From Allobosea sp. WAO (GTDB taxonomy: Bacteria; Pseudomonadota; Alphaproteobacteria; Rhizobiales; Beijerinckiaceae): a stretch of DNA of 64,000 nt. Positions 1 through 14,861 of the stretch are shown piece by piece (position 1 is the first letter of the stretch; the number at the start of each line of letters is the position of its first letter). A program made the translations under genes and the position numbers. A model generated the notes under the pieces. That model made no database searches, was not told the origin of the DNA, and worked only from the letters and a program-made list of their open reading frames with translations. The stretch is from the NCBI RefSeq assembly GCF_001509835.1, contig NZ_JXTJ01000003.1:1-64000 (forward strand), written 5' to 3'.

Positions 1-1572
1 GCGACGCTGACGATCACGATCACCGGCCGAACAGACGGCGCACCCACGATCGTCCCGGCAGACATGAACGGCGCGGTGAGCGGCGAGAACAGCGTCAGCG
101 AGCGCGGCCTCGGCGATACCGGCGACGCCAGCGAGACGACGACCGGCGCGGTGACGGTGGCGGCACCGGACGGTCTTTCGACCGTGACGGTCGGCGGGCG
201 GGTGATCACGCTCGCCGAGCTTCAGGCGCTGGGCACGACGCCGATCACGGTGACCACGCCGAAGGGCGTTCTGACGATCAACGGCTTCACGCCGGGCACG
301 ACGGTCGGTGGCGTACCGGTCTCCGGCGAGCTGAGCTACAGTTACACGCTCACCACCGCACAGGACCATCGCGGTGGTGCTGTCAGCGACGTGTTCGCGC
401 TGGCGATCGGCGATGCCGGCGGCGGCACGGCGACAGGTAGCCTGACGATCGCGATCGCCGACGACGCTCCGCAGGCGCGCAACGATGTCGCGACCATCGA
501 GGAGGATACCCCCTCCGTCGCGGGCAACGTCATCACGACCGGCGCAGGCGCGGACCGCGTCGGCGCAGATGGCGCAACGGTGACCGAAGTCGGCTTCGGT
601 GCGACCACCGGCGCGGTCGGCAGCGCGCTCTCCGGAGCCTACGGCGCGCTGACGCTGAACGCCGATGGCAGCTACAGCTACGCGCTCGACAACGACAATG
701 CCGCGGTCAGCGGGCTGCGCGACGGCGAGACCCTGACGGAGGTGTTCACCTATCGGATCACGGACGCTGACGGCGACGTGTCGACCGCGACGCTGACGAT
801 CACGATTACCGGACGCAACGAGCCCCCCGCGCCCATCCTGCCGGATCGGGACGCCGGTGCCGGGATGCTGCCGGGCCGACTTCCGGGAGCCGGTTTTGTC
901 GAACTCGGGGCGAACTCCTATCTCGAAGGGCGCCCCTACGATCGCTACCTCACCTTCGGGCAGGTGGTGTCGCAGCAGGTCCTGTTCCGGATGGGGGGCA
1001 CCTCGACCCCGGGCACCTTGCACTATGAAGCGGCGCTGGGCATCGACCAGCCGCTTCCTTCCTGGATCAGCTTCGATCCGTCGCTGCAGCTGGTAACGGC
1101 GCGGCCGACCCGCGATGTCCCGCCGGGGCTCTATCTCGTGCGTGTGACTGCACGTGACAGCAACGGCAACTACGCCGAATCCTCGGTCTCGTTCCGGATC
1201 CTGCGCGATATCGACGAGGCTGTCCGCGAGTTGCGTGCGGCGGTTCCCGCCATCGACCTGCCCAATCTGCTCCCAGCGGGAGGCGAGCTGCCTGAACCCG
1301 GCTCCGACGGCGAGACGCGACGCGACCAGCCGGTGCGACAGGAGCCAGAGCAAGAGGCTCCGTCCGAACAGGCCCCGGACAAGCAGGCCCGCTCATCTGC
1401 ACCGACAGCGGCGGAAGCCATCTCCGCCGGCAACGCGGCGCTCTCTGGTGAGGGGCAGCGGCCAAGCCGGTCGCTGACGCAGTCTTTGATCAATTCCGGG
1501 CTCGCCGGCCAGATGATCGAGGCGGCGCGGCTTCTCGAAGCGCTGACCCCCGAGCGCCCGCCGAGAAGCTGA
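1..1572 (+). CDS. VCBS-repeat cell-surface/adhesin-like protein, C-terminal part (5' end outside window)
   Basis: The reading frame is open from base 1, so only the C-terminal ~523 residues are present. They contain VCBS/T1SS-143-type repeat units ending in the strand ATLTITITGR, seen at bases 1-30 and again at 787-816 with nearly identical DNA. An Ig-like segment follows (about bases 900-1200), then a Pro/Glu/Gln-rich linker and a short amphipathic tail. Proteins of this type are exported and act as large adhesins or biofilm scaffolds. I see no RTX nonapeptides (GGxGxD) and no obvious type 1 C-terminal signal in this part. TolC starts 43 bases downstream on the same strand, so the export genes that follow probably serve this protein. 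Family assignment is firm; specific function is inferred. Confidence 0.85.
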   Translation, partial: ATLTITITGRTDGAPTIVPADMNGAVSGENSVSERGLGDTGDASETTTGAVTVAAPDGLSTVTVGGRVITLAELQALGTTPITVTTPKGVLTINGFTPGTTVGGVPVSGELSYSYTLTTAQDHRGGAVSDVFALAIGDAGGGTATGSLTIAIADDAPQARNDVATIEEDTPSVAGNVITTGAGADRVGADGATVTEVGFGATTGAVGSALSGAYGALTLNADGSYSYALDNDNAAVSGLRDGETLTEVFTYRITDADGDVSTATLTITITGRNEPPAPILPDRDAGAGMLPGRLPGAGFVELGANSYLEGRPYDRYLTFGQVVSQQVLFRMGGTSTPGTLHYEAALGIDQPLPSWISFDPSLQLVTARPTRDVPPGLYLVRVTARDSNGNYAESSVSFRILRDIDEAVRELRAAVPAIDLPNLLPAGGELPEPGSDGETRRDQPVRQEPEQEAPSEQAPDKQARSSAPTAAEAISAGNAALSGEGQRPSRSLTQSLINSGLAGQMIEAARLLEALTPERPPRS

Positions 1573-1615
1573 CACCGTCCTCCCGCTTCCGAACACAATT
1601 TTTGCCAGAGTCCCG

Positions 1616-3169
1616 ATGCGCCTGATTCTTCCCACCCTTCTCCTGTCCGCCGGGCTCTCGGCCTGTATCGCTCAGCCCGAACCGTTCACTCAGGCCGACA
1701 ACGAAAAGCGAGCTGCCCTCGACCTCAGCGCCATCGGCGCGAACAGCCCGCTGCCTTCCCGCCCGGTGACGTTGGCGGAGGCTCAGGCCCGCGCGATCAG
1801 CTACAATCTCGACACGCGCCTGCAGATGTTCAATTCGGCCCTGCAGCGTGAGCAGCTCGACCTGACGAAGCTCGACATGCTGCCGAACCTGACGGCGAAC
1901 GCCGGCTATGCGGGGCGCGACAAGCACCTCGTCAGCTCGAGCGCGAGCTATCGCAACGGCACCGTGCTGCCGTCGAATTTCGAGACGACCTCCGTCGATC
2001 GCGACCGGGTCTTCGCCGACCTGACCTTGTCCTGGAACGTCATCGATTTCGGCCTGAGCTACCTCCAGGCCAAGCAGCAGGCTGACCGGGTCAACATCGC
2101 CGACGAGCAGCGGCGCCGGGTCGTCAACAACGTCTTCCAGCAGGTTCGCAACGCCTACTGGGTCGCGGTAGCCGCCGAACGCGTCCGGCCGCAGCTGCGC
2201 GCGGTCCTTGCCGAGGCCCGGCGGGCCCAGAACGCCTCGCGCCAGATGGAAGCCGAGCGCGAGCAGAAGCCGGAGCAGGCCCTGCGCTACCAGCGCGACC
2301 TGCTCGAACTCATCCAGGAGCTGGAGGCCGTCGACGACCAGCTCGCCATCGCCAAGACTCAGCTCGCGCAGCTGATGGGCCTGCGTCCCGGCGCGCCCTA
2401 CAAGCTCGCGGTTCCTTCCACGCTTCCCGGCCTCGGCCGGTTCGGCCTGTCGGTCGAGCAGATGGAGCGGGTCGCCCTCGTCAACCGCTCGGAGCTGCGC
2501 GAAGAGGGTTACAACGCCCGCATCGTCCGCAACGAAGGCCATCGCGCCCTGCTACGCCTCGTTCCGGGGGTCACCCTGCTCGGCTCGCTGAATTACGACA
2601 GCAACAGCTACCTGCTCTTCAACAACTGGCAGGAAGGCGGAGTGCGCGTGGCCGCGAACCTGCTCCGCATCGTGACCAACTATCCCAAGATCAGCCAGCT
2701 CAACGAGGTCCAGTCGGAAATCTCCGAAACCCGGCGGCTGGCGACGACGATGGCGGTCCTGGCGCAGGTCCAGGTCTCGGCCCAGCAATACCAGATCGCG
2801 CGGAAGAGCTATGAGCGGCTCAATTCCATCTCGACCATCAACAGGCGCATTGCCCAGCTCTCGCGCGACGGTCAGGAGGCCCAGACGACCTCCGAGCTCG
2901 ATGCGATCCGCGAGAAGGCCGCCTCGGCGCTGACCGAGCTGCGCCGCCACCGCGCCTATGCCGATCTGCAGAACGCCCATGCCGCGATCAATGTCAGCCT
3001 CGGCCTCGACCCGGTTCCGGCCGAAGCCTTTGGCCGCGATCTCGGCGAGCTGACGGCGCAGATCAATCGTCGCAATGAGGAATGGCGGGCCGGCCGCATC
3101 GCGGTTCCGCGCATCGATGAGGTCGAGCAGCCGGCAAAGCCGGGCACGATCGCCGCCAACGCACACTAA
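1616..3169 (+). CDS. TolC-family outer membrane efflux/secretion protein (lipoprotein)
   Basis: The product has 517 residues and begins with a lipoprotein signal peptide whose lipobox is LSAC (Cys at about residue 17). The rest is a long alpha-helical protein with two repeated halves rich in Gln, Arg and Ala heptads, typical of the TolC/OEP fold, which forms a trimeric outer-membrane channel and periplasmic tunnel. Some 517 residues is normal for the family. It follows the VCBS protein gene by 43 bases, and the HlyD-like gene starts at the base right after its TAA stop, so these are clearly one operon. It is the likely outer-membrane exit duct of the cluster. Confidence 0.88.
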   Translation: MRLILPTLLLSAGLSACIAQPEPFTQADNEKRAALDLSAIGANSPLPSRPVTLAEAQARAISYNLDTRLQMFNSALQREQLDLTKLDMLPNLTANAGYAGRDKHLVSSSASYRNGTVLPSNFETTSVDRDRVFADLTLSWNVIDFGLSYLQAKQQADRVNIADEQRRRVVNNVFQQVRNAYWVAVAAERVRPQLRAVLAEARRAQNASRQMEAEREQKPEQALRYQRDLLELIQELEAVDDQLAIAKTQLAQLMGLRPGAPYKLAVPSTLPGLGRFGLSVEQMERVALVNRSELREEGYNARIVRNEGHRALLRLVPGVTLLGSLNYDSNSYLLFNNWQEGGVRVAANLLRIVTNYPKISQLNEVQSEISETRRLATTMAVLAQVQVSAQQYQIARKSYERLNSISTINRRIAQLSRDGQEAQTTSELDAIREKAASALTELRRHRAYADLQNAHAAINVSLGLDPVPAEAFGRDLGELTAQINRRNEEWRAGRIAVPRIDEVEQPAKPGTIAANAH

Positions 3170-3976
3170 ATGGCCTCGCCGCGACCGGATCGTGACGGGC
3201 CCGCGCGGGCCAGGGCTGGGCGGGCGGTGCGCTTCCCGGCCAATGTCGTCGCGGCCGCGCTGCTGTCAGGCCTGACGCCGGTGCTGCCGGCCGCGGCCGA
3301 GTCCGCCGTCGAAGTCCGGGTGCAGATCACCCCGCGCCATGCGACCATTCTGTCGAGCGAGATCGCCGGCAAGATCAGTGAGCTGCCTTTCCGGGAGGGT
3401 GAAGCCTTCGAGAAGGGGCAGGAGATCGCTTCGCTCGACTGCGATTCCTATCGGGCCCGGCTCCAGCTCGCCGACGCGAAAGTGAGCGGCGCCGAACGCA
3501 AGCTGGAGGCGATCCGCCTGCTCGATCAGCGCAAGGCGGTGGGGCGCATCGACGTCGATCTCGCGGGAAGCGAGTTCGATGCCGCCAAGGCCGAGCAGCA
3601 AATGGCGGCCAAAGACGTCAGCCGCTGCACCGTGCATGCCCCGTTCAGCGGCCGCATCGCCGAGTTGCGGGTGAAACGCTATCAGTATGTCGCGAGCGGC
3701 GAACCGCTGGCCGATATCCTCAACGAGCGCGAACTCGAGATCGAGCTGCTCGTGCCGTCGCGCTGGATTTCGTGGCTGACGGTCGGAACCACGTTCACGA
3801 CGCGGATCGAAGAGCTGCAGCGCGACTATCCTGCCGAGGTGACGCGCATCGTGCCGCGCATCGACCCGGTGAGCCAGACGGTGAAGCTCTACGGCAGGAT
3901 TGCGGGCGACCGTCCCGAACTGGTCGCCGGAATGAGCGGCGCCGCCCGCCTGGCGGCGCCCGCCCGCGCGCCATGA
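3170..3976 (+). CDS. HlyD/RND-type periplasmic adaptor (membrane fusion protein)
   Basis: This 268-residue adaptor has a hydrophobic signal/anchor around residues 22-43. A lipoyl-like half-motif (residues ~55-85), a short helical hairpin, a second lipoyl half (GRIAELRVKRYQYVASGEPL) and a beta-barrel domain follow. It is shorter than classical HlyD because the coiled-coil hairpin is short. Its ATG directly abuts the TolC stop, and its TGA overlaps the next ATG (ATGA at 3973-3976), so translational coupling is likely. The family links an inner-membrane component to TolC. Which inner-membrane energiser it uses is not evident, since no ABC or RND gene is present in the cluster. Confidence 0.85.
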   Translation: MASPRPDRDGPARARAGRAVRFPANVVAAALLSGLTPVLPAAAESAVEVRVQITPRHATILSSEIAGKISELPFREGEAFEKGQEIASLDCDSYRARLQLADAKVSGAERKLEAIRLLDQRKAVGRIDVDLAGSEFDAAKAEQQMAAKDVSRCTVHAPFSGRIAELRVKRYQYVASGEPLADILNERELEIELLVPSRWISWLTVGTTFTTRIEELQRDYPAEVTRIVPRIDPVSQTVKLYGRIAGDRPELVAGMSGAARLAAPARAP

Positions 3977-5301
3977 ACAGCCAGTCGTCCCAGCCGCTGC
4001 TGCGGCTCTCGCTGCTGCTGCAGCTCGAGCGGAGGGCGCGGGCGGCCAAAGGCGACGAGCTCGCCTTCCTGATCGCGAACGAGACCTACGGGCTTGTGCC
4101 CTATCGACAGGCCTTCCTTTGGAGTGGGGCGCCGCAAGAGCGGATCCTGGCCATGTCCGGGATCGCGACGGTCGAGCGCAACGCGCCAATGGTCGCCTGG
4201 CTCGAAAGACTGTTCGGCACGATCGCACGCTCGAACGCGTCCGGGCCGCGCACCCTCACCGTCCAGGATGTGCCGGAGGCCTTCACGCAGGACTGGCCGG
4301 AATGGCTGCCGCCCTATCTGGTCTGGCTGCCACTGGGGCACGGGGCGGATGTTCTCGTCCTCGGACGAGAGACCGACCTTGCCGAGGGCGATCGACAATT
4401 GCTCGGTTTCCTCGTCGATGCCTACGGCCATGCCCTGGCAGCGCAACGCCCCCGCGGCCTCACGGCACGCTCGCTCAACCTGGCCACCCGCCGGAAACGG
4501 CTGATCGTGGCGGGCGCTGCGGCGCTCGCTTTGCTCGCAGCCTTCCTGCCGGTGCGGCAGACGGCGCTGGCGCCGGCCGAGATCGTGCCACGCGAGCCGG
4601 CGGTCATCCGCGCGCCTCTGGAAGGGGTGATCGACCGGATTCTGGTCAAACCCAACCAGCCCGTTGCCGAAGGTGACGTGCTGTTCAACCTCGACGATCG
4701 CCGCCTGAACAATCAGCTCGACGTCGCAAATGGCGCCTTGCAGGCGATCGAGCTCGAATTGCGGCAGGCAAGGCAGCTCGCCGTCGTCGACCAGAAGGTG
4801 CGCTCGACGCTGCCCATGCTGCAGGGCAAGTTCGATCAGCAGCGCGCCGAGATCGCCTATCTGCGCGAACAGCTGGCGCGGATCGAGGTGCGGGCACCGC
4901 GCAGCGGCGTCGCCGTGCTCGACGATCCCAATGAATGGCTTGGGCGGCCGGTCGCGATCGGCGAGAGGGTACTGGTCGTCGCCGACCCGGCGAAAGTCGA
5001 GGTGCAGGCGAGGCTCTCCGTCGCCGATGCCATCCGGCTCGACGACGAAGCGCCGGTGCGCCTGTTCCTCAACATCGCGCCGGAGCGGCCACTCGATGCT
5101 GTCCTCAGCCAGTCCTCCTATCAGGCAGTCCAGGGCACGGACGGCGTGCTGGCCTATCGCCTCAAGGCACGCCTGACCGGCGAGGAGCAGCCGCGGATCG
5201 GCCTCAAGGGAACCGCCAGGATCTACGGCGAGCCCGTGCCGCTGGCCTATGCCCTGTTCCGCCGCCCCTTCGCGGCACTGCGGCAATGGGTCGGGCTCTA
5301 G
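3973..5301 (+). CDS. HlyD-family adaptor with N-terminal GAF-like cytoplasmic domain
   Basis: I chose the ATG at 3973 because it overlaps the upstream stop; the upstream in-frame extension is a shadow of the previous gene. The 442-residue product has a soluble N-terminal region (~1-170) resembling the GAF-like domain found in some efflux adaptors. One membrane segment follows at about 177-194, then a lipoyl half (PLEGVIDRILVKPNQPVAEG), a helical hairpin, a second lipoyl half ending in VRAPRSGVAVLDD, and a beta-barrel. The topology implies a cytoplasmic sensor-like domain joined through the inner membrane to a periplasmic adaptor. Having two different adaptor genes back to back, plus a third adaptor domain in the next gene, is unusual. 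Confidence 0.83.
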   Translation: MNSQSSQPLLRLSLLLQLERRARAAKGDELAFLIANETYGLVPYRQAFLWSGAPQERILAMSGIATVERNAPMVAWLERLFGTIARSNASGPRTLTVQDVPEAFTQDWPEWLPPYLVWLPLGHGADVLVLGRETDLAEGDRQLLGFLVDAYGHALAAQRPRGLTARSLNLATRRKRLIVAGAAALALLAAFLPVRQTALAPAEIVPREPAVIRAPLEGVIDRILVKPNQPVAEGDVLFNLDDRRLNNQLDVANGALQAIELELRQARQLAVVDQKVRSTLPMLQGKFDQQRAEIAYLREQLARIEVRAPRSGVAVLDDPNEWLGRPVAIGERVLVVADPAKVEVQARLSVADAIRLDDEAPVRLFLNIAPERPLDAVLSQSSYQAVQGTDGVLAYRLKARLTGEEQPRIGLKGTARIYGEPVPLAYALFRRPFAALRQWVGL

Positions 5302-5303
5302 CC

Positions 5304-7439
5304 ATGGCGACCGCCGCCGGGGCCTTGTCCGCGGATGCCGCGCTGCCGCCGCTACGCGACGAGATCATGCTCGAACCCGGCCCCGTTCTGCGCGGCGGCG
5401 CGCCGAGCTGGACGCTCTGCGACCCCACACGCAACCGCTTCTTCAGGATCAGCTGGGTCGAGTTCGAGATCCTCTGCCGCTGGCGCCTGCGCCGCCCGCA
5501 GGAGATCGTGCGCAGCGTCAATGCTGATACCACCCTGACGATCGAGCCCGAGGATGTCGAGAGGGTATCGTCCTTCCTGGACCAGGCCGAGCTGCTGCGC
5601 CGGTCCACCCCGGAGGACACCGGCCAGCTCGTCGCGCGCCGGCGGGCCGGTCGGAAGGACTGGCTGAGCGTGCTCCTGCACAGCTACCTCTTCGTGCGGG
5701 TGCCGCTGCTGCGGCCGGAGCCGATGCTCAAGGCGCTGCTGGCCGCCGTGCCCTGGGTCTATGGCAGGGCATTCTTCCTCGTGAGCCTGCTCGCGGGGCT
5801 GACCGGCCTCTTCCTGGTCACGCGGCAATGGGACAGTTTCGTCTCCGCGCTGCCATGGTTCTTCTCGCTGGAAGGCATGGTCGTGGCGGGGCTGGCGCTG
5901 TTCGCCGCCAAGGCACTGCACGAAATCGGGCACGGGCTCACCGCTGTCCGCTATGGCTGCCGCGTTCCGACGATGGGTGTCGCCTTCCTCGTCATGGCCC
6001 CGGTGCTCTACACCGACACCAGCGCCGCCTGGCGCCTGCGCGAGCGCCGGCATCGGCTCGCCATTGGCAGCGCCGGCATCGCAGCCGAGCTCTACCTCGC
6101 GCTCTATGCGCTGCTGCTGTGGAATTTCCTGCCGGATGGCGTCTTGCGCAGCGCGGTCTATCTGTGGGCGACCAGCACCTGGATCCTGACCGTCCTGGTC
6201 AACGTCTCGCCCTTCATGCGCTTCGACGGCTATTATCTGCTCTCCGACATCGTCGAGATTCCCAATCTGCAGGAGCGTGCCTTCGCCCTGACGCGGCACC
6301 GCATCCGGCAGCTGCTGTTCGCGTTCGACGAGGAGCCACCCGAATACTGGCCGGAGCGCACCCGCCTCTTCCTCGTCTCCTGGGCTGTCGCGACCTGGAT
6401 CTACCGCTTCTTCCTGTTCCTCGGGATCGCACTGCTCGTCTATCACATGTTCTTCAAGGCGCTCGGCCTTGCGCTCTTCGCCATCGAGATCTGGTTCTTC
6501 ATCCTGAAGCCGGTCACGCGCGAGCTGCGGGAGTGGAGCCAGCGGCTGCGGAAAGACGGCTTGAACCGGCGCAGCCTGGTGACCCTAACAGTGCTTGCCG
6601 CCTTGATCGCCGGCCTGTTCGTTCCGTGGCGAACCTCGTTGCATCTGCCAGCGATCATGGCCGCGCGGGAGCGCACCCAGCTCTATCTCCCCGTTGCCGC
6701 GCGGGTGAAGACCGTTCATGCCGGCGTCGGCGACAGCGTCGCCGCAGGGCAGGCCATCGTCAGCTTCGAATCGCCGGACCTCGCCTTCAAGCTCGCCCAG
6801 GCCGGGCGAAACGTGACGAGCCTCGCCGCCCAGATGCAGGCGATGGCGACCGGAGCGGGCGATCCGGCGCGCGCTTCGGTCCTGGTGGAACGGCTCGCGG
6901 CCGCACGCTCCGAGGTCGCGGCCCTTGAGCAGGAGAGCGCGCGCCTGGTGGTCAGGGCCTCCTTCGCCGGCATCGTTGCGGAACTCGCCGAACCGCTCGG
7001 GAACGGTGAATGGTTCAAGGCCGGTGAGGCGGTGGCCTATCTCGTCGATGCCTCCGCCGTCAGGATCGACGCCTATGTCGAGGAAGCCGATCTTAGCCGG
7101 CTCGCGCCCGGAGCCGGTGGCAGCTTCATCCCGGCGGATCTGTCGCAGGCCAGCATCGGCGTCCGCGTCGCCGCGATCGACGAGACGGCGGTGCGGGCAT
7201 TGCCGGATCGCGAACTGGCTTCGCTTCATGGTGGCCACATCGCCGTGCGCCAGGATGAGAACCGGCAGGCCGTTCCGGAAGTCCCGGTCTATCGCGTCGC
7301 GATCGAGCCCCTGTCCTATCCGCAGGTGCGGCAGACCATCGTCGGAACCGTGGTCGTCGAGGCGAAGCCAGTCCGCCTCTACAGGCTGATCGTCAATTTC
7401 GCGCTGAGGATATTTTATCGGGAAGGGGCGCTCGGCTGA
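5304..7439 (+). CDS. Membrane zinc metalloprotease (M50/site-2 type) fused to HlyD-like domain
   Basis: The start at 5304 lies two bases after the previous stop; a longer in-frame version is a shadow. The 711-residue product begins with a soluble ~105-residue winged-helix/PqqD-like domain. Several membrane segments (~150-360) carry the zinc motif HEIGH at residues 206-210, with the third-ligand motif FDGYY around Asp308. A further membrane segment lies near 428-445, and a periplasmic lipoyl/beta-barrel HlyD-like region fills the C-terminus. Such proteins are catalogued as putative peptide zinc metalloproteases. All M50 ligands are present, so it should be catalytically competent. It closes the VCBS/TolC/HlyD operon and sits where a type 1 exporter would have its ABC ATPase. 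Confidence 0.85.
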   Translation: MATAAGALSADAALPPLRDEIMLEPGPVLRGGAPSWTLCDPTRNRFFRISWVEFEILCRWRLRRPQEIVRSVNADTTLTIEPEDVERVSSFLDQAELLRRSTPEDTGQLVARRRAGRKDWLSVLLHSYLFVRVPLLRPEPMLKALLAAVPWVYGRAFFLVSLLAGLTGLFLVTRQWDSFVSALPWFFSLEGMVVAGLALFAAKALHEIGHGLTAVRYGCRVPTMGVAFLVMAPVLYTDTSAAWRLRERRHRLAIGSAGIAAELYLALYALLLWNFLPDGVLRSAVYLWATSTWILTVLVNVSPFMRFDGYYLLSDIVEIPNLQERAFALTRHRIRQLLFAFDEEPPEYWPERTRLFLVSWAVATWIYRFFLFLGIALLVYHMFFKALGLALFAIEIWFFILKPVTRELREWSQRLRKDGLNRRSLVTLTVLAALIAGLFVPWRTSLHLPAIMAARERTQLYLPVAARVKTVHAGVGDSVAAGQAIVSFESPDLAFKLAQAGRNVTSLAAQMQAMATGAGDPARASVLVERLAAARSEVAALEQESARLVVRASFAGIVAELAEPLGNGEWFKAGEAVAYLVDASAVRIDAYVEEADLSRLAPGAGGSFIPADLSQASIGVRVAAIDETAVRALPDRELASLHGGHIAVRQDENRQAVPEVPVYRVAIEPLSYPQVRQTIVGTVVVEAKPVRLYRLIVNFALRIFYREGALG

Positions 7440-7873: not shown

Positions 7874-8584
7874 TCAATCGGGCAGGAGCAGGCGCTGGTC
7901 GATGCGGAACAGCCGGCCATCGCCGAGGATATGGGCGGAAAGCCTCAGGCCGAACAGCGGCCGGAAGGCCGCGTCGCGGACATTGAGGCCGCCGGCATAG
8001 GCGCCCATGGCCGGCATCACGCAGCGCGTTGGCGACAGCGCAAAGCAGCGCCGGCGCAGCGCCCGGCCGCGCATCCGGACCTTGGCGGCGGGGTGCAGAT
8101 GCCCGGCGATCTCCGGCATCGCCGCGGCAAGGCTGGGCTCGTGCCGCAGCGTGACGCCGGAGATTTCGAGCTCGTCCAGCACCGCTCCGCCCATCGCCGC
8201 CGAGATCTGGGGGTCGTGGTTGCCGCTGATCCAGAGCCAGTCGCGGCCGGCCTGGAGGGCCCGCAGCGTCGCAAGACAGCGCTCGTCGATCCGCGCTTCG
8301 GCGCCGCGATCATGGAAGCTGTCGCCGAGCGCGATCACGCGCGCGGGCTGGTAGCGCGCAATCGCCGCACCCAGTAGGGCGAGCGTCGCGGCCGAATCAT
8401 AGGGCGGCAGCAAAACGCCGCGGGCGGCATAGGCCGAGCCTTTTTCCAGATGCAGGTCGGCGACGACGAGGGTGCGCTCGTCCGGCAGATAGAGCGCGCC
8501 GGAAAGGTCGGGCACGACGGCGAGCCGGCCGAGAATGAAGGCTTCGGCCGCAACGCCCGTCATCTCTTTCGTCGCCAGGTTCAC
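7874..8584 (-). CDS. pdeM: Ligase-associated DNA damage response endonuclease PdeM
   Basis: The product is a 236-residue calcineurin-like metallophosphoesterase. Its metal-binding motifs appear in order: ADLHLEKG, GDSFHD, GNHD and GHLHP. Its ATG overlaps the stop of the helicase gene upstream (TGA/ATG at 8581-8584), so the two are translationally coupled. In many Proteobacteria and Actinobacteria this MPE family is encoded with an Lhr-like helicase, an MBL exonuclease and an ATP-dependent ligase. The endonuclease role is from knowledge of that module. The family call is secure from motifs plus context. Confidence 0.92.
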   Translation of the reverse strand: MNLATKEMTGVAAEAFILGRLAVVPDLSGALYLPDERTLVVADLHLEKGSAYAARGVLLPPYDSAATLALLGAAIARYQPARVIALGDSFHDRGAEARIDERCLATLRALQAGRDWLWISGNHDPQISAAMGGAVLDELEISGVTLRHEPSLAAAMPEIAGHLHPAAKVRMRGRALRRRCFALSPTRCVMPAMGAYAGGLNVRDAAFRPLFGLRLSAHILGDGRLFRIDQRLLLPD

Positions 8585-11070
8585 GCCATCGCCTCTTCGA
8601 GCATCTGCGCTTCCGCCTCGGCCAGGATCTCGTCGGCCGCTTCGCCACTCACCGCCTCGCGGCCGATCTCGAGCATCACCGAAACCGAGAGCGGCGAGAC
8701 GTGATCGAGCGGCTGATGCACGATTCGCCCGCTGATCCGTGTCAGCATCTGACCGAGACGGCCGATATCGAGCAAGCCGGTCGCGGCATCGGCGCGTGCG
8801 GCGCGCAGCAGGACATGGTCGGGCTGGTGCCGGCGCAGCACATCATAAACGAGGTCGGTCGAGATCGTGACCTGCCGCCCGCTCTTCTCCTGGCCGGGGA
8901 AACGCCGCTCGATCAAGCCGCCGATCACGGCGCAGGAGCGGAATGTGCGCTTCATCAGCGCCGATTCGGCCAGCCATTCCTCGAGATCGTCGCCGAGCAT
9001 GTCCTGCGCGAAGAGCTCGTCGAGCGAGAGCGCGCCGCGCGCAATGGCAGCGCCCATGTCACCGAGCGTCCAGACCGCGATGCCGTAGTCGTTGCAGACG
9101 AAGCCGAGCGGCCTGAGCCGCGCGCGCTCCAGCCGCCGCGTCAGCAGCATGCCGAGCGTTTGGTGGGCGAGGCGGCCCTCGAACGGGTAGGCGACGAGGA
9201 AGAAGCGCCCGGCACGCGGAAAGGTCTCGACCAACAATTCGCCCGGCTTCGGCAGGCGCGATTTCAGGCGCTGTGCATGCAGCCAGGACGAGACTTCGTC
9301 CGGCAGCTTCGCCCATTCCTTCGGCGTGGCGAGGATGGAGCGGACGCGCGCGGCGAGAAAGGTCGAGAGCGGGAACTTGCCGCCGTTATAGGACGGAATT
9401 TTTGGATCGGTGCCGGCGGCGGTGCGCGAGCAGACCACCTCGTTCTCATTGATGCCCTCGAAGCGCAGCACCTCGCCGGCGAAGATGAAGGTGTCGCCCG
9501 GCGTCATCGTCTCCGCGAAATACTCTTCGAGTTCACCGAGGACGCGTCCGCCGCGCGAGAGCATCTGCTGGCCGCCGGGGCGAGCCGGGCGCGAGCGCCC
9601 GAGCCGGACCTTGAGCATCGTCGATTCGACGATGGTGCCGACATTCATCCGGTATTGCTGGATGGTCTGGGCATTGCTCGCCCGGTAGAGCCCATCCTTG
9701 CCCCGGCGCAATTTGGCGAAGCGCTCATAGCTCTTCAGCGCATAGCCGCCGGTCGCGACGAAATCGACGACGGCGTCGAAATCGGCGCGGGTAAGATCGG
9801 CATAGGGCGAGGCGGTCAGGACTTCCTGGTAGAGCACGTCGGGCTCGAAGCCGTCGGAGCAGGCGACCCCCAGCACATGCTGGGCGAGCACGTCGAGCGC
9901 CCCGATACGCGGTGGCGGGGTATCCTGCGCCGCCTCCGTCACCGCATCGAGCGCGGCGCGGCATTCGAGTAGCTCGAACCGGTTCGACGGCACGAGAAAC
10001 GCCTGTGAGGGCTCGTCCATGCGGTGGTTGGAGCGGCCGATGCGCTGCATCAGCCGGCTCGCGCCCTTGGGCGCCCCGACATTGATGACGAGGTCGACAT
10101 CGCCCCAGTCGATGCCGAGATCGAGTGTCGCGGTGCAGACCACGGCCTTGAGCTTGCCCGCCGCCATCGCCGCCTCGACCTTACGGCGCTGGCCGACATC
10201 GAGCGAGCCGTGATGCAAGGCGATCGGCAGCGTCTCCTCGTTCACGCTCCACAGCGCCTGGAACATGAACTCGGCCTGCATGCGTGTGTTGACGAAGACC
10301 AGCGTCAGCTTGTGCGCCTGGATCGCGGCATAGATGTCGTCGACGGCATGAGCGGTGATGTGCCCTGCCAGCGGCAGCCGCCGGCTGGTCGCCATGATGC
10401 CGATCTGCGCCTTCGCGCCGCCCTTGACGGTGACGAGGCCGGACGGCGTTCCGGCGCCGCCGAGATAGGCCTGCAGATCGGCCGGCTCGCGCACCGTGGC
10501 CGACAAGCCGACCGCGCTCATCTTTGGCGCGAGGCCGCGCAGGCGGGCGAGATCGAGCGAGAGCAGGTCGCCGCGCTTTGAGGTGACGAGCGCGTGCAAC
10601 TCGTCGAGCACAACCCGGCGTAAGGATGCGAAGAAAGGCTTCGCGTCGCGATGCGAGACCAGGAGCGCAAGCTGCTCGGGCGTCGTCAGCAGGATGTCTG
10701 GCGGCCGTTCGATCTGGCGGGCGCGCTTGGCGGGGGAGGTGTCACCGGTGCGGGTCTCGACCTTCACCGGAAGCCCCATCTCGCGGATCGGCGTCTCGAG
10801 ATTGCGGGCGATGTCGACAGCCAGCGCCTTCAGCGGTGAAACATAGAGCGTGTGCAGCCCGTCGCGCTCCCCGCCGCGTTCCGTCAATTCGACCAGCGAG
10901 GGCAGGAAACCGGCCAGCGTCTTGCCGGCGCCGGTCGGCGCGACCAGCAGGGTCGAGCGTCCGCCCCGGGCCTCTTCCAGCAGCGCGAGCTGATGCGGCC
11001 GCACGTTCCAGCTGCGACTGGCGAACCAGGCGGCGAAAGCAGGGGGAAGGGGAGAGGCGACCGCGTCCAT
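8581..11070 (-). CDS. Ligase-associated DNA damage response DEXH-box helicase (Lhr-like)
   Basis: The product is an 829-residue superfamily 2 helicase. Walker A is APTGAGKT near the N-terminus, the Walker B/DExH box is DELH, and the RecA-like domain 2 has the helicase motif RIGRSNHR. The C-terminal half is Lhr-type, with a winged-helix and a beta-barrel module. Length is normal for the short, ligase-associated Lhr class, well below full-length Lhr (~1500 residues). The next gene, pdeM, overlaps its stop by 4 bases. It presumably unwinds DNA 3'-to-5' for the associated nucleases and ligase. Confidence 0.93.
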   Translation of the reverse strand: MDAVASPLPPAFAAWFASRSWNVRPHQLALLEEARGGRSTLLVAPTGAGKTLAGFLPSLVELTERGGERDGLHTLYVSPLKALAVDIARNLETPIREMGLPVKVETRTGDTSPAKRARQIERPPDILLTTPEQLALLVSHRDAKPFFASLRRVVLDELHALVTSKRGDLLSLDLARLRGLAPKMSAVGLSATVREPADLQAYLGGAGTPSGLVTVKGGAKAQIGIMATSRRLPLAGHITAHAVDDIYAAIQAHKLTLVFVNTRMQAEFMFQALWSVNEETLPIALHHGSLDVGQRRKVEAAMAAGKLKAVVCTATLDLGIDWGDVDLVINVGAPKGASRLMQRIGRSNHRMDEPSQAFLVPSNRFELLECRAALDAVTEAAQDTPPPRIGALDVLAQHVLGVACSDGFEPDVLYQEVLTASPYADLTRADFDAVVDFVATGGYALKSYERFAKLRRGKDGLYRASNAQTIQQYRMNVGTIVESTMLKVRLGRSRPARPGGQQMLSRGGRVLGELEEYFAETMTPGDTFIFAGEVLRFEGINENEVVCSRTAAGTDPKIPSYNGGKFPLSTFLAARVRSILATPKEWAKLPDEVSSWLHAQRLKSRLPKPGELLVETFPRAGRFFLVAYPFEGRLAHQTLGMLLTRRLERARLRPLGFVCNDYGIAVWTLGDMGAAIARGALSLDELFAQDMLGDDLEEWLAESALMKRTFRSCAVIGGLIERRFPGQEKSGRQVTISTDLVYDVLRRHQPDHVLLRAARADAATGLLDIGRLGQMLTRISGRIVHQPLDHVSPLSVSVMLEIGREAVSGEAADEILAEAEAQMLEEAMA

Positions 11071-11120
11071 GCGCCGACAGAGATAGGCCCTGCCGAACGA
11101 AATGGGAACGGTGGGTTCGC

Positions 11121-11168
11121 GTCATTCCAGGGCGACGCGTAGCGACGACCAGAGAAGCTCGTGATGAC
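11121..11168. repeat. Candidate short interspersed repeat (GTCAT-ended), possibly degenerate
   Basis: This 48-base segment lies between the methyltransferase and helicase genes. It begins GTCATTCCAGGGCGACGCGT and ends with the inverse ATGAC, so its ends form a GTCAT/ATGAC inverted pair. It resembles the dispersed intergenic elements of Rhizobiales that begin GTCATTCC or GTCATTGCGAGCG, and two related segments occur at 44493-44583 and 58495-58555. Assignment is by eye. Confidence 0.4.
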
Positions 11169-11175
11169 GCCGGGC

Positions 11176-12132
11176 TCAGTGCTCCGCGACGACGATCAGC
11201 CCCGGCACCGGTTCGCCACGGTCCATGCGGACGCTCTGCGACTCGACCAGCATGGGTCGCAGTCGCGCCAGGCTGAGCGCTTCCCTGATCCAGCCTTCGG
11301 CATGGGCGAAACGACGATCCCGGCCCACAATGATGCCAGCGCCCTGATGGCTCTGCACCGTGAAGGCAAGGAGGCCGCCCGTTTTGAGCACGCGCGCGCT
11401 CTGATGGAAGCTCGGAGCAAGGTCTCCGACATAGATGAAGACGTCGGTGGAGACGACGAGGTCGGCCGATGCGTCGGGCCGGCTCGCCAGGAAGGCGGTC
11501 AGGTCCACAGTGGCGAGCTTGTCGTAGAGCGGGCTGCCATCTGCGCACCTCTTGGCCTGCGCTTTGGCGATCATTCGGGGCGAGAGGTCGCAGCCGGCGA
11601 GGAACCCCGCCTCGGCGCGGATGGCCTCGCCCATCAGGCCGGTGCCGCAGCCGAGGTCGAGGGCGGTTCCGAACTGGAAGGGCCGGCTGGCCTGTGCGCA
11701 ATGGCGCGCCAGCGCCTGCTTCAGCAACGCCGGGCCCTGGTATTGCAAGCTGCCGACGAGGTGGCTGTCGAAGCGCTCGGCATAACCGTCGAACAGCGCG
11801 CCTGAAAAACTCTCCGAGGTCGCCTGCTCGGCGGCGAGCGCGCCGATGCGGGCGAGGTCGAGCCTGGCGCCAACACGGTCGCTCGGGTCGAGGTCGAGGT
11901 ATTGCCGCCAGGCGGTCGCGGCCTCCTCATTGTGCCCGAGCGCCTCCTGAGCCAGCCCATAGAGATGCCAGGCAGCGGTGAAACCGTAGTTCTCGGCGAG
12001 CGTTTGATCGAGGATGTCGATCGCCGCCTGCGGATCGCCACCCTTCAAGGCCTCCTCGGCCCAGGCATAGCGGCGGTCGAGACGCTTATCGCCGGAACTG
12101 GCGGAATACACGCTGCTGCCCTTTTCGATCAT
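11176..12132 (-). CDS. TPR-containing class I SAM-dependent methyltransferase
   Basis: The 318-residue product has one or two tetratricopeptide-like repeats at the N-terminus (residues ~20-95), followed by a Rossmann methyltransferase fold. The SAM-binding motif I is ALDLGCGTGLMG, and a post-I acidic region and motif DLVVSTDVFIY follow. The substrate cannot be read from the sequence; this TPR-methyltransferase type is annotated only generally in alphaproteobacteria. It sits between the two halves of the ligase-associated repair module, on the helicase strand and 105 bases upstream of it. It could share the helicase transcript. Confidence 0.8.
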   Translation of the reverse strand: MIEKGSSVYSASSGDKRLDRRYAWAEEALKGGDPQAAIDILDQTLAENYGFTAAWHLYGLAQEALGHNEEAATAWRQYLDLDPSDRVGARLDLARIGALAAEQATSESFSGALFDGYAERFDSHLVGSLQYQGPALLKQALARHCAQASRPFQFGTALDLGCGTGLMGEAIRAEAGFLAGCDLSPRMIAKAQAKRCADGSPLYDKLATVDLTAFLASRPDASADLVVSTDVFIYVGDLAPSFHQSARVLKTGGLLAFTVQSHQGAGIIVGRDRRFAHAEGWIREALSLARLRPMLVESQSVRMDRGEPVPGLIVVAEH

Positions 12133-12171
12133 GCTGCGGGTTTAACGAAGGTGCATAACACTGGCCAGACG

Positions 12172-13227
12172 ATGAAGCCTTCCGATCTGCTGACGCCGAC
12201 CCCGGCCGGGCTCTACTGCCCGCCGGCCGATATCCATATCGACCCCGTTCGTCCGGTGGCGCGGGCGCTGATCACCCATGGCCATTCCGACCATGCCCGC
12301 GCTGGCCATGGCGCGGTCCTCGCGACGCGTGAGACGCTGGCGATTATGGCGTTGCGCTATGGCGAGGCCTTTGCGGGCACACAGCAGGTGGCGGCGCCCG
12401 GCGAAACCGTTCGCATTGGCGCGGTGGAGTTTCGCTTCGTCCCGGCCGGCCACGTCCTCGGCTCGGCCCAGATCGTGGCCGAGCACAAGGGCCTGCGTAT
12501 CGTCGTCTCCGGCGACTACAAGCGCGAGCGCGACCCGACCTGCGCGCCCTTCGAGCCGGTTCCCTGCGACGTCTTCATCACCGAGGCGACTTTCGGCCTG
12601 CCGGTGTTCCGCCATCCGCCGGCGAGTGCCGAGACCGCCAAGCTGCTCGATTCCGTCAGGCTCTTTCCCGAGCGCACGCATATCGTCGGGGCCTATTCGC
12701 TTGGGAAGGCGCAGCGGCTGATGGCGCTGATGCGTGAGGCAGGTTACGAGCGGCCGCTTTTCATCCATGGCGCAGTCGAGAAGATCACCGAGCTCTACCA
12801 GGCCGAGGGCATCCCGCTGGGGGAGATCCGCAAGGTCGAGCCCGGCGAACGCAAGGCGCTCGCGGGGGAAGTCGTCATCTGCCCGCCGAGCGCGATCCAG
12901 GACCTCTGGTCGCGCCGCTTTCCGGACCCTGTCACCGCCTTCGCCTCGGGCTGGATGCGGGTCAGGGCCCGCGCCCGCCAGAAGGGCGTCGAATTGCCGT
13001 TGATCATCTCGGACCATGCCGACTGGGACGATCTTCAGGCAACGATCCGGGAAGTGCAGGCCGGCGAGATCTGGATCACCCATGGCGAGGCCGAGGCGCT
13101 GGCGCATTGGTGCGGCACGGTCGGCCTCAAGGGCATGCCGCTGCATCTCGTCGGCTATGGCGACGAGGGCGAGGCTGAAGCCGAGGGGAAGCCCGCGGAA
13201 GCCGGTTCGGCGGAGGCTGCTCCATGA
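12172..13227 (+). CDS. Ligase-associated DNA exonuclease (metallo-beta-lactamase fold)
   Basis: I take the ATG at 12172 as the start; an in-frame GTG at 12151 is possible and the longer open frame is not supported. The 351-residue product is an MBL-fold nuclease of the SNM1/CPSF type. It carries the metal motif HGHSDHA near residue 40, downstream zinc-ligand His/Asp residues (VSGDYKRERD), and a C-terminal beta-CASP-like region with ISDHADWDD. The family acts as a DNA 5'-to-3' exonuclease with its partner ligase. Its TGA overlaps the ligase ATG (ATGA, 13224-13227), so the pair is coupled. Confidence 0.92.
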   Translation: MKPSDLLTPTPAGLYCPPADIHIDPVRPVARALITHGHSDHARAGHGAVLATRETLAIMALRYGEAFAGTQQVAAPGETVRIGAVEFRFVPAGHVLGSAQIVAEHKGLRIVVSGDYKRERDPTCAPFEPVPCDVFITEATFGLPVFRHPPASAETAKLLDSVRLFPERTHIVGAYSLGKAQRLMALMREAGYERPLFIHGAVEKITELYQAEGIPLGEIRKVEPGERKALAGEVVICPPSAIQDLWSRRFPDPVTAFASGWMRVRARARQKGVELPLIISDHADWDDLQATIREVQAGEIWITHGEAEALAHWCGTVGLKGMPLHLVGYGDEGEAEAEGKPAEAGSAEAAP

Positions 13228-14861
13228 ACCGTTTCGCCTGGCTGCTCGACCGCCTCGCCTATGAGCCGCGCCGCAACGGCAAGCTCGCGCTGATAGCCGA
13301 CTATCTGCGCACCACGCCTGATCCCGATCGTGGCTATGCACTCGCGGCGATGACCGGCGGGCTGGTGTTCCAGAACGCGAAGCCCGGCCTGATCCGCGCC
13401 TTGATCGCCGAGCGTACCGACCCGGTGCTGTTCGCGCTCTCCTATGACTATGTCGGCGACCTCTCGGAGACGGTCGCGCTGATGTGGCCGGCCCGGCACG
13501 GCGCCAACGACGTGCCGCATCTGCCCGACGTCGTCGCCGGGCTGCGCAATTCCGGCAAGACCGAGCTGCCGCGCCTGATCGCCTCCTGGCTCGACGCGCT
13601 TGACGAAACCGGCCGCTGGGCCCTGCTCAAATTGATCACCGGGGCCCTGCGTATCGGCGTCTCCGCCCGCCTCGCCAAGACCGCTGCCGCGAGCCTCGGC
13701 GGTGTCGCGCCCGACGAGGTCGAGCAGGTCTGGCACGGGCTCGAGCCGCCCTATGCCGCGCTCTTCGCCTGGCTCGAGGGCAGGGGGCCGCGTCCCGAAG
13801 CGACCGATCCGGCGCCGTTCCGCCCGGTGATGCTCTCGCATGCGATCGAGGACGGCGATTTCGAGAAGCTAGACGCCAGTGAGTTCGCGGCCGAATGGAA
13901 ATGGGATGGCATCCGCGTCCAGGCGGTCGCCGGCACGCGCGCGGATGGCAGCCGCACCGTCCGGCTCTATTCGCGTACCGGCGAGGATATCGGCGCCGCC
14001 TTTCCGGATCTCACCGAGGCGCTGACGCAGGACGGGGCGCTCGACGGCGAATTGCTGGTGATGCGCGAGGGCGCCGTCCAGAGCTTCAACACCCTGCAGC
14101 AGCGGCTCAACCGCAAGGCGGTGACGGCGAAGATGCTGGCCGAATTCCCAGCCCATATCCGCGCCTATGACCTTCTCGCCGATGGTGCCGAGGATCTGCG
14201 CGAGCTGAGCTATGTGGAGCGCCGCGTCCGGCTCGAAGCCTTCCTCGGCAGGCTCGACGACTCCCGCTTCGATCTCTCGCCGCAGATTCCCTTCGCGCAT
14301 TGGAAGGAACTCGCCGCCGCCCGCGCCGATCCCGCATCAGCCGGAGCCGGGGGCGATGCGGAAGCGGTCGAGGGCTGCATGCTCAAGCGGCTTGATTCGT
14401 CATATCTGCCGGGTAGGCCGAAGGGCTATTGGTACAAATGGAAGCGCGATGCCCGGCTTGTCGACTGCGTGCTGATGTATGCCCAGCGCGGCCACGGCAA
14501 GCGCTCCTCCTTCTATTCCGACTATACTTTCGGCGTCTGGCGCGTCGGAGACACAGGCATGGACGAGCTCGTTCCTGTCGGAAAGGCCTATTTCGGCTTC
14601 ACCGATGAGGAGCTGATCGAGATCGACCGCTATGTCCGCAAGAACACTGAAAACCGCTTCGGTCCGGTGCGCGAGGTGACGCATACGCCCTCGAGCGGCC
14701 TCGTCTTCGAAGTCGCGTTCGAGGGCCTGCAGCGTTCGACGCGGCACAAATCCGGCATCGCCATGCGCTTTCCCCGGATCAGCCGCATCCGCTGGGACAA
14801 GCCGCCGGGCGAGGCCGACCGGATCGAGGCGCTGGAGGCGCTGCTGCCGGCCGCGAACTGA
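13224..14861 (+). CDS. ATP-dependent DNA ligase (LigC/archaeal-type, module-associated)
   Basis: The 545-residue ligase has an N-terminal DNA-binding domain (~1-190). The nucleotidyltransferase domain contains motif I EWKWDGIR with Lys226 as the predicted AMP-accepting residue. Motif III is about LDGELLV, motif IV ends in VEGCMLKR, motif V has WYKWKRD, and a C-terminal OB-fold follows. It closes the exonuclease-ligase pair. In this module the ligase supports repair beside the main NAD-dependent LigA. The exact in vivo role is only partly established for the family. Confidence 0.93.
   Translation: MNRFAWLLDRLAYEPRRNGKLALIADYLRTTPDPDRGYALAAMTGGLVFQNAKPGLIRALIAERTDPVLFALSYDYVGDLSETVALMWPARHGANDVPHLPDVVAGLRNSGKTELPRLIASWLDALDETGRWALLKLITGALRIGVSARLAKTAAASLGGVAPDEVEQVWHGLEPPYAALFAWLEGRGPRPEATDPAPFRPVMLSHAIEDGDFEKLDASEFAAEWKWDGIRVQAVAGTRADGSRTVRLYSRTGEDIGAAFPDLTEALTQDGALDGELLVMREGAVQSFNTLQQRLNRKAVTAKMLAEFPAHIRAYDLLADGAEDLRELSYVERRVRLEAFLGRLDDSRFDLSPQIPFAHWKELAAARADPASAGAGGDAEAVEGCMLKRLDSSYLPGRPKGYWYKWKRDARLVDCVLMYAQRGHGKRSSFYSDYTFGVWRVGDTGMDELVPVGKAYFGFTDEELIEIDRYVRKNTENRFGPVREVTHTPSSGLVFEVAFEGLQRSTRHKSGIAMRFPRISRIRWDKPPGEADRIEALEALLPAAN

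Follow-up and report, generated by a model that had tools for sequence, protein, structure and literature searches.

The 64,000-nucleotide stretch of Allobosea sp. WAO DNA analyzed here (the window; bases 1–64000 of contig C23 in a 6.1 Mb assembly) opens with five genes, encoding the C-terminal end of a giant VCBS/cadherin-type protein, a TolC-type lipoprotein, a short HlyD-type adaptor, a GAF-like-HlyD protein, and an M50 protease fused to an HlyD-type adaptor (M50-HlyD). We lean toward the view that this cluster is a dedicated TolC export-and-processing system that works without an ATP-binding cassette (ABC) ATPase and serves giant repeat proteins that are marked by a LEPR tag near the N-terminus.

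The cluster and its giant client

All five genes lie on the + strand, with intergenic gaps of 43, 0, −4, and 2 bases (Table 1), a packing as tight as that described in the initial annotation, which had been made from the letters of the window alone. HlyD_3 (Pfam) matches the three separate proteins in which adaptor domains had been reported, and the HEIGH and FDGYY motifs of the protease, described there as intact, are indeed so: H206, E207, H210, and D308 are invariant across 51 aligned sequences. For the protein labeled GAF-HlyD, the HlyD part stood and the GAF part proved weak, the window protein having no GAF match and GAF_2 matching 3 of 20 orthologues (best E 0.0017). An ATG at 5286 is an alternative possible start of the M50-HlyD gene.

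With about seven predicted transmembrane (TM) helices and both HExxH and a distant Asp within membrane helices (PF02163, alignment, and TM profile), the M50-HlyD protein has the defining features of an M50 (site-2) protease; by family analogy, D308 would be the third zinc ligand. A PqqD-like domain in the same protein had been overlooked. It scored 94.1% in hhalign over 69 columns against a 16-sequence PqqD alignment, where four control domains reached at most 1%, and the region forms three strands followed by three helices in the structure model.

Because the N-terminus of the giant lies off the contig, the LEPR tag and the DUF4347 domain behind it were invisible to the initial annotation. 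Searching the same genome, we found a 2610-residue open frame with the N-terminal part of a giant at the end of contig C8 (L034 3–7832, minus strand). It aligns with residues 9–2622 of a complete 3652-residue protein from genome G016, and the 523-residue window piece aligns best with residues 3159–3651 of that protein, other VCBS repeats matching too; by comparison with G016, the C8 and C23 pieces are presumably parts of one gene. Both the C8 piece and the G016 giant carry the tag LEPRFMFDAA at residue 23, followed by DUF4347 (PF14252, E 1.8e-46 and 3.8e-45) and then by cadherin-like and VCBS repeats. The G016 gene map reads giant, TolC, GAF-like-HlyD, M50-HlyD, to which a uniform recount (see below) added the short HlyD. 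This synteny, together with the co-occurrence reported below, upholds the proposed link between the VCBS protein and the cluster. Likewise, no RTX nonapeptide, absent from the window piece as first described, was found in the C8 piece or in four whole giants from other genomes. As separate observations, the ends of C8 and C23 share 20 identical bases and the break falls inside VCBS repeats, and another VCBS-type giant of the source genome, at the end of contig C42 (G000, L126 7512–11627), showed no LEPR tag N-terminally.

DUF4347 is predicted to have a cysteine-protease fold. The 3652-residue G016 protein and the C8 piece each contain a single Cys, residue 195, which belongs to a GC of DUF4347; three other giants read contain one or two Cys. 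A structure comparison of DUF4347 (VIA-align) ranked Tce1 (PA0256) first; no caspase or clan CD structure was among the structural matches listed, which excludes nothing. Foldseek returned mostly repeat-domain matches, as the 733-residue DUF4347 model used is dominated by repeat domains. With the DUF4347 piece, phmmer gave one weak match, to a designed repeat protein, and an A4 profile search gave flagellin, RTX-protein, and cadherin matches only, all to the repeat part.

To place the cluster in other genomes, we scanned contigs with the M50-HlyD protein and obtained 11 loci, including ones from Rhizobium, Microvirga, Cupriavidus, Paludibacterium, Shimia, Devosia, Cysteiniphilum, and a deltaproteobacterium; the neighbor maps of these loci and of sampled genomes contain a similar gene set. 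The uniform recount covered 47 loci, hand-chosen from those at hand and in some cases clipped by contig ends, with M50-HlyD proteins divided by score into type 1 (at least about 475 bits, 34 loci) and type 2 (at most about 361 bits, 13 loci). A GAF-like-HlyD gene lies on the strand of the M50-HlyD gene in 33 of the 34 type 1 loci, and the complete order TolC, HlyD, GAF-like-HlyD, M50-HlyD is found in 18 of them, the rest being cut short or rearranged. Gene pairs are swapped in Shimia (L047). Among the type 2 M50 proteins read, HExxH occurs in 10 of 10 and [FLY]DG[YF] in 9 of 10 (the pattern was not found in L194). In G602, a genome with no DUF4347 match, an inserted tagged giant separates the short HlyD gene from the GAF-like-HlyD gene (L192 1534–7857).

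The initial annotation had pointed out that the cluster has no ABC ATPase, and this extends to the recounted loci: a motif scan, the sensitivity of which is uncalibrated, found no ABC ATPase motif inside the cluster (0/47) or in the 500 bases on either side. None adjoins the giant gene in its own genome either, the nearest ATPase motif on C8 (L034 15535–16311) lying ~7.7 kb beyond the gene start. An ABC gene hidden upstream of base 1 was considered and rejected, as none is present in the DNA that could be read past the start of the giant, 12 kb of it on C8 and 2.8 kb in G016.

The LEPR tag and the machine clades

Co-occurrence was measured with a profile of 16 M50-HlyD proteins (A1, E ≤ 1e-30, three candidates scored per genome) and Pfam DUF4347, run over the same genomes in a class sample (n = 289) and a phylum sample (n = 329) that have some genomes in common. 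The class sample contained 13 genomes positive for A1, 23 for DUF4347 (20 over cut-off), and 10 for both (Fisher p 3e-10, uncorrected for kinship); in the phylum sample, these numbers were 86, 89, and 72 (Fisher p 2e-41, likewise uncorrected).

We then read the sequence preceding DUF4347 for a strict tag pattern, LExRxx[LFMYI]D. It is present in 35 of 41 DUF4347 loci from A1-positive genomes (10 of 12 from the class search, 25 of 28 taken from the best-scoring phylum rows, and not in the one added locus, L214), or in 36 if the variant LEPRLLFAG of L183 is counted. By comparison, the tag was found in 2 of 46 A1-negative DUF4347 loci (18 class, 28 phylum), both from G497, whose genome is 57% complete; these 46 include two loci cut before the N-terminus (L225, L226), two with no DUF4347 by BLAST (L080, L083), and two that are the same open reading frame (ORF; L210, L228). 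Conversely, among 14 phylum genomes positive for A1 and negative for DUF4347, seven have tagged giants beside the M50-HlyD gene, with the tags LEPRLLFDG (G398), LEPRLLLDA (G501), LEPRMMFDA (G529), LEQRFVFDG (G602), LEERIFLSA (G336), IEPRILLSA (G476), and MEPRLLLSA (G343). From these counts and from the tagged giants that lack DUF4347, we conclude that the tag follows the machine more closely than DUF4347. DUF4347 itself was dropped as a machine marker, since 44 of the 46 A1-negative loci lack the tag and tagged giants exist without DUF4347.

The tag is also confined to giants and DUF4347 proteins in the loci at hand, which were chosen around M50-HlyD or DUF4347 genes rather than drawn from whole proteomes. 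Six-frame translation gave 1138 ORFs (at least 300 residues, start inside the locus, first 60 residues distinct), 51 of which have the tag within 180 residues, and all 51 are giants or DUF4347 proteins. Genome G068 has a second LEPR-DUF4347 giant gene more than 1 Mb from its cluster (L120 8211–15329), with an in-frame stop inside DUF4347 and the tag still readable in the piece upstream of the stop.

The tag form follows the machine clade. All 16 loci read near type 1 machines, three of them from one genus, have D at position 8 of the tag, and all 8 type 2 loci, from seven genomes, have S or A there (Fisher 1.4e-6, type 1 versus type 2). Six of these eight type 2 assignments were made in the cluster's own neighborhood, while L265 (G333) and L269 (G608) were assigned by the nearest listed machine, a type 2 gene 70 kb and 50 kb away, respectively; G333 and G608 contain type 1 machines as well. 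In both of these loci, DUF4347 matches lie in very long frames, of 14920 residues in G333 (LEPRFMLSG) and 10907 residues in G608 (MEPRYLLSG).

Next to the cluster, positions 7874–14861 hold genes that, judging by their translations, resemble a ligase-associated repair set (Table 1).

Table 1 Features of the cluster and of the adjoining genes in the window.
Feature	Position	Strand	Evidence or remark
Giant VCBS/cadherin-type protein, C-terminal 523 residues (putative client)	1..1572	+	5' end cut by the edge of contig C23 at base 1
TolC-type outer membrane lipoprotein	1616..3169	+	OEP PF02321, E 2.9e-22; lipobox LSAC seen in translation
Short periplasmic adaptor, RND_mfp/HlyD type	3170..3976	+	TIGR01730, 119.3 bits (cut-off 94.9)
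GAF-like N-terminal domain, one TM helix, HlyD-type adaptor	3973..5301	+	PF13437, E 6.5e-16
M50 protease fused to HlyD-type adaptor	5304..7439	+	Peptidase_M50 PF02163, 29.5 bits (cut-off 27.2)
PqqD-like or RiPP recognition element (RRE)-like domain, residues 14–105 of M50-HlyD	5343..5618	+	Profile comparison and structure model
HExxH (HEIGH) zinc site, residues 206–210	5919..5933	+	51/51 aligned sequences
FDGYY, residues 307–311	6222..6236	+	D308 in 51/51
Periplasmic adaptor domain, residues 442–690	6627..7373	+	Adaptor fold
Presumed phosphoesterase	7874..8584	-	
Presumed large helicase	8581..11070	-	
Presumed methyltransferase-like protein	11176..12132	-	
Presumed exonuclease-like protein	within 11902..13227	+	
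Presumed ATP-dependent DNA ligase	13224..14861	+	

Proposed mechanism and alternatives

In the mechanism that we propose, the predicted cytosolic PqqD-like domain of M50-HlyD would bind the client's LEPR region, a role like that of PqqD-like domains in peptide maturation, where they bind leader peptides, and the intramembrane zinc site would cleave within the tag or next to it. A periplasmic duct built from the three HlyD-type proteins would lead to the TolC lipoprotein and so let the giant out to the surface, and DUF4347, where present, might then trim the N-terminus as a predicted cysteine protease. The M50 module would occupy the place of the transporter in other tripartite systems. Recognition, cleavage, export through TolC, the non-use of ATP, and the energy source are what we infer from these features. 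In its most complete form, the proposal is that of a new Gram-negative secretion system, in which a LEPR address tag is read by the cytosolic PqqD-like domain, the intramembrane zinc protease both cleaves this tag and acts as the gate to a three-adaptor TolC duct that works without an ABC ATPase, and each of two machine clades reads its own tag alphabet (D at position 8 in one, S or A in the other), the S/A alphabet being linked to LEPR-XLL and planctomycete-type motifs. We give this complete form a chance slightly short of even.

Several results weigh against an ABC-less export system for tagged giants. The samples contain related genomes, so the p-values given above overstate independence. 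Of the 41 A1-positive DUF4347 loci, six are without the strict tag (L156, L158, L183, L086, L069, and L214): L183 has the variant, L086 is an internal domain copy whose start lies outside the locus, L069 is a broken copy whose upstream piece carries the tag, and L214 belongs to G592, with a type 2 machine. No tag was found in the other 7 of the 14 DUF4347-negative genomes, of which G434 was outside the reading and G386, G469, G511, G596, and G601 were cut by contig ends or had a frame still open where the reading stopped. The seventh, G376, is so far a counterexample: 20 kb were read at each of its two clusters, and no tagged giant was seen there. PF05402 matches one of the 16 M50-HlyD members (E 0.017), and searching PDB profiles with the PqqD-like domain yielded no RRE and nothing relevant. 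The M50-HlyD gene of Cysteiniphilum (L045) is the only cluster gene on its 8.8 kb contig. Finally, many genomes have type 1 ABCs elsewhere, and the source genome has eight PrtD-type exporters. As a side observation, G376 is a genome with two M50-HlyD clusters (L186, L187).

These ABCs bear on an alternative that we regard as unlikely, in which a type 1 ABC acting in trans exports the giant and the cluster is a retention-and-release device that senses through its GAF-like domain, holds the N-terminus in TolC, and frees it by proteolysis. LapA/LapG/LapD is the model for a giant held in TolC and released by proteolysis, and a protease-like DUF4347 after the tag would suit such a role. In a survey of 36 picked M50-HlyD genomes (34 A1-positive ones plus G012 and G016), LssB was over cut-off in 15, and PrtD was over cut-off in 7 of 14 genomes chosen from the 21 without LssB, the other 7 of the 21 being outside the PrtD scan. 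However, seven of the 36 (G110, G346, G382, G398, G520, G602, and G402; 95–100% complete) have no LssB, PrtD, or HlyB over the model cut-offs, and the tag was read in five of them (G110, G346, G398, G602, and G402). Most of the seven do have weaker ABC exporters, the strongest, in G398, reaching 437.3 bits where the cut-off is 725.55. The clients read also lack RTX repeats, which are common, if not universal, in type 1 substrates. ABC help in trans thus appears possible in the source genome, in view of its eight PrtD-type ABCs, and not general; for the source genome, the argument against such help would come by analogy, from the genomes without such an ABC over cut-off.

Also improbable in our judgment is a two-step route, in which Sec brings the giant to the periplasm and the cluster carries out tag processing and outer-membrane passage, the protease replacing the ATPase. 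MacAB-TolC does handle periplasmic substrates, but a strong hydrophobic core is mostly missing from the tag region and charged residues lie within the tag. The best 12-residue hydropathy has a median of 1.56 over 51 sequences (maximum 2.31, six at least 2.0), compared with 1.86–2.83 for 11 TolC/HlyD proteins of the clusters, ranges that overlap and that reflect hydropathy rather than signal-peptide prediction.

It is very improbable that the cluster exports a peptide or small molecule with the giants as mere neighbors: the M50 part does resemble the daptide maturation protease model NF041824 (153.6 bits, cut-off 300), but some tagged giants lie 50–70 kb from the listed M50-HlyD matches or on different contigs altogether, their tag form tracks the machine clade, and neither a short precursor peptide nor modifying enzymes of a ribosomally synthesized and post-translationally modified peptide (RiPP) pathway were noticed in the neighbor maps, which list no ORFs under 110–150 residues.

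Relation to known systems

The ABC-less export system favored here resembles type 1 secretion (HlyB-HlyD-TolC, or LapBCE for giant adhesins) in that TolC and an adaptor of the HlyD type are encoded next to a giant repeat protein. It differs in that the cluster lacks an ABC motif and has in its stead an M50 protease that includes a PqqD-like domain, in that there are three adaptor proteins, and in that the clients carry an N-terminal tag and, in those read, no RTX repeats. TolC and the adaptor fold are also common to the tripartite pumps of the MacAB-TolC, resistance-nodulation-division (RND), and major facilitator superfamily (MFS) types, MacA, EmrA, and MexA being among the best structural matches; in contrast to these pumps, no energized inner-membrane transporter was noticed among the cluster genes, and no RND or MFS transporter lies between them in the neighbor maps, as judged by ORF length and TM count rather than by profile.

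On the client side, LEPR-XLL (NF012209) shares the N-terminal tag. Of six giants scanned, that of G398 (type 1 tag) exceeded its cut-off of 17 with a score of 18.9, and four giants of both types fell below it (G333, 16.5; G494, 15.9; G529, 13.7; and G336, 13.1); the source genome's own N-terminal piece gave no match at E 0.1. The planctomycete extracellular motif PF07595 matched only G333 (E 0.16). Both are known as regions of large proteins, and we found no dedicated machine described for either. The core of the daptide M50 protease model aligns over residues 70–395, below the family cut-off, and the protein studied here differs in being fused to a periplasmic adaptor and in having giants as partners. 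A further relative on the client side is DUF4347 as known from Pfam, along with the type VI effector candidate Tce1; the DUF4347 studied here differs in following a LEPR tag and in being part of a giant repeat protein.

No description of the cluster or of the pairing of tag and machine was found in the PMC literature, the scope of the search, with subscription papers and bioRxiv outside it. The excerpts available to us mention a Vibrio giant protein with a LEPR-XLL domain (PMC10868602) and a DUF4347 protein raised in stationary phase (PMC12322963), and those of a paper on an S-layer type 1 system do not contain the terms M50, DUF4347, or LEPR (PMC13274458). As the ABC that defines type 1 secretion is missing from the cluster and no RND or MFS pump was seen, we rate the system as new in category, its mechanism being unproven.

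TolC-dependent protein export is taught as being driven by a dedicated energized transporter, and in this widespread, ordered cluster, which has its own client tag, a protease holds the transporter's place. An export-and-trimming route for LEPR-tagged giants would be new. If it exists, it would give a function to two orphan sequence features, LEPR-XLL and DUF4347 in giants, would make clients predictable from their first 100–200 residues, and would raise the question of how a 3000-residue chain exits the cell without an ABC ATPase.

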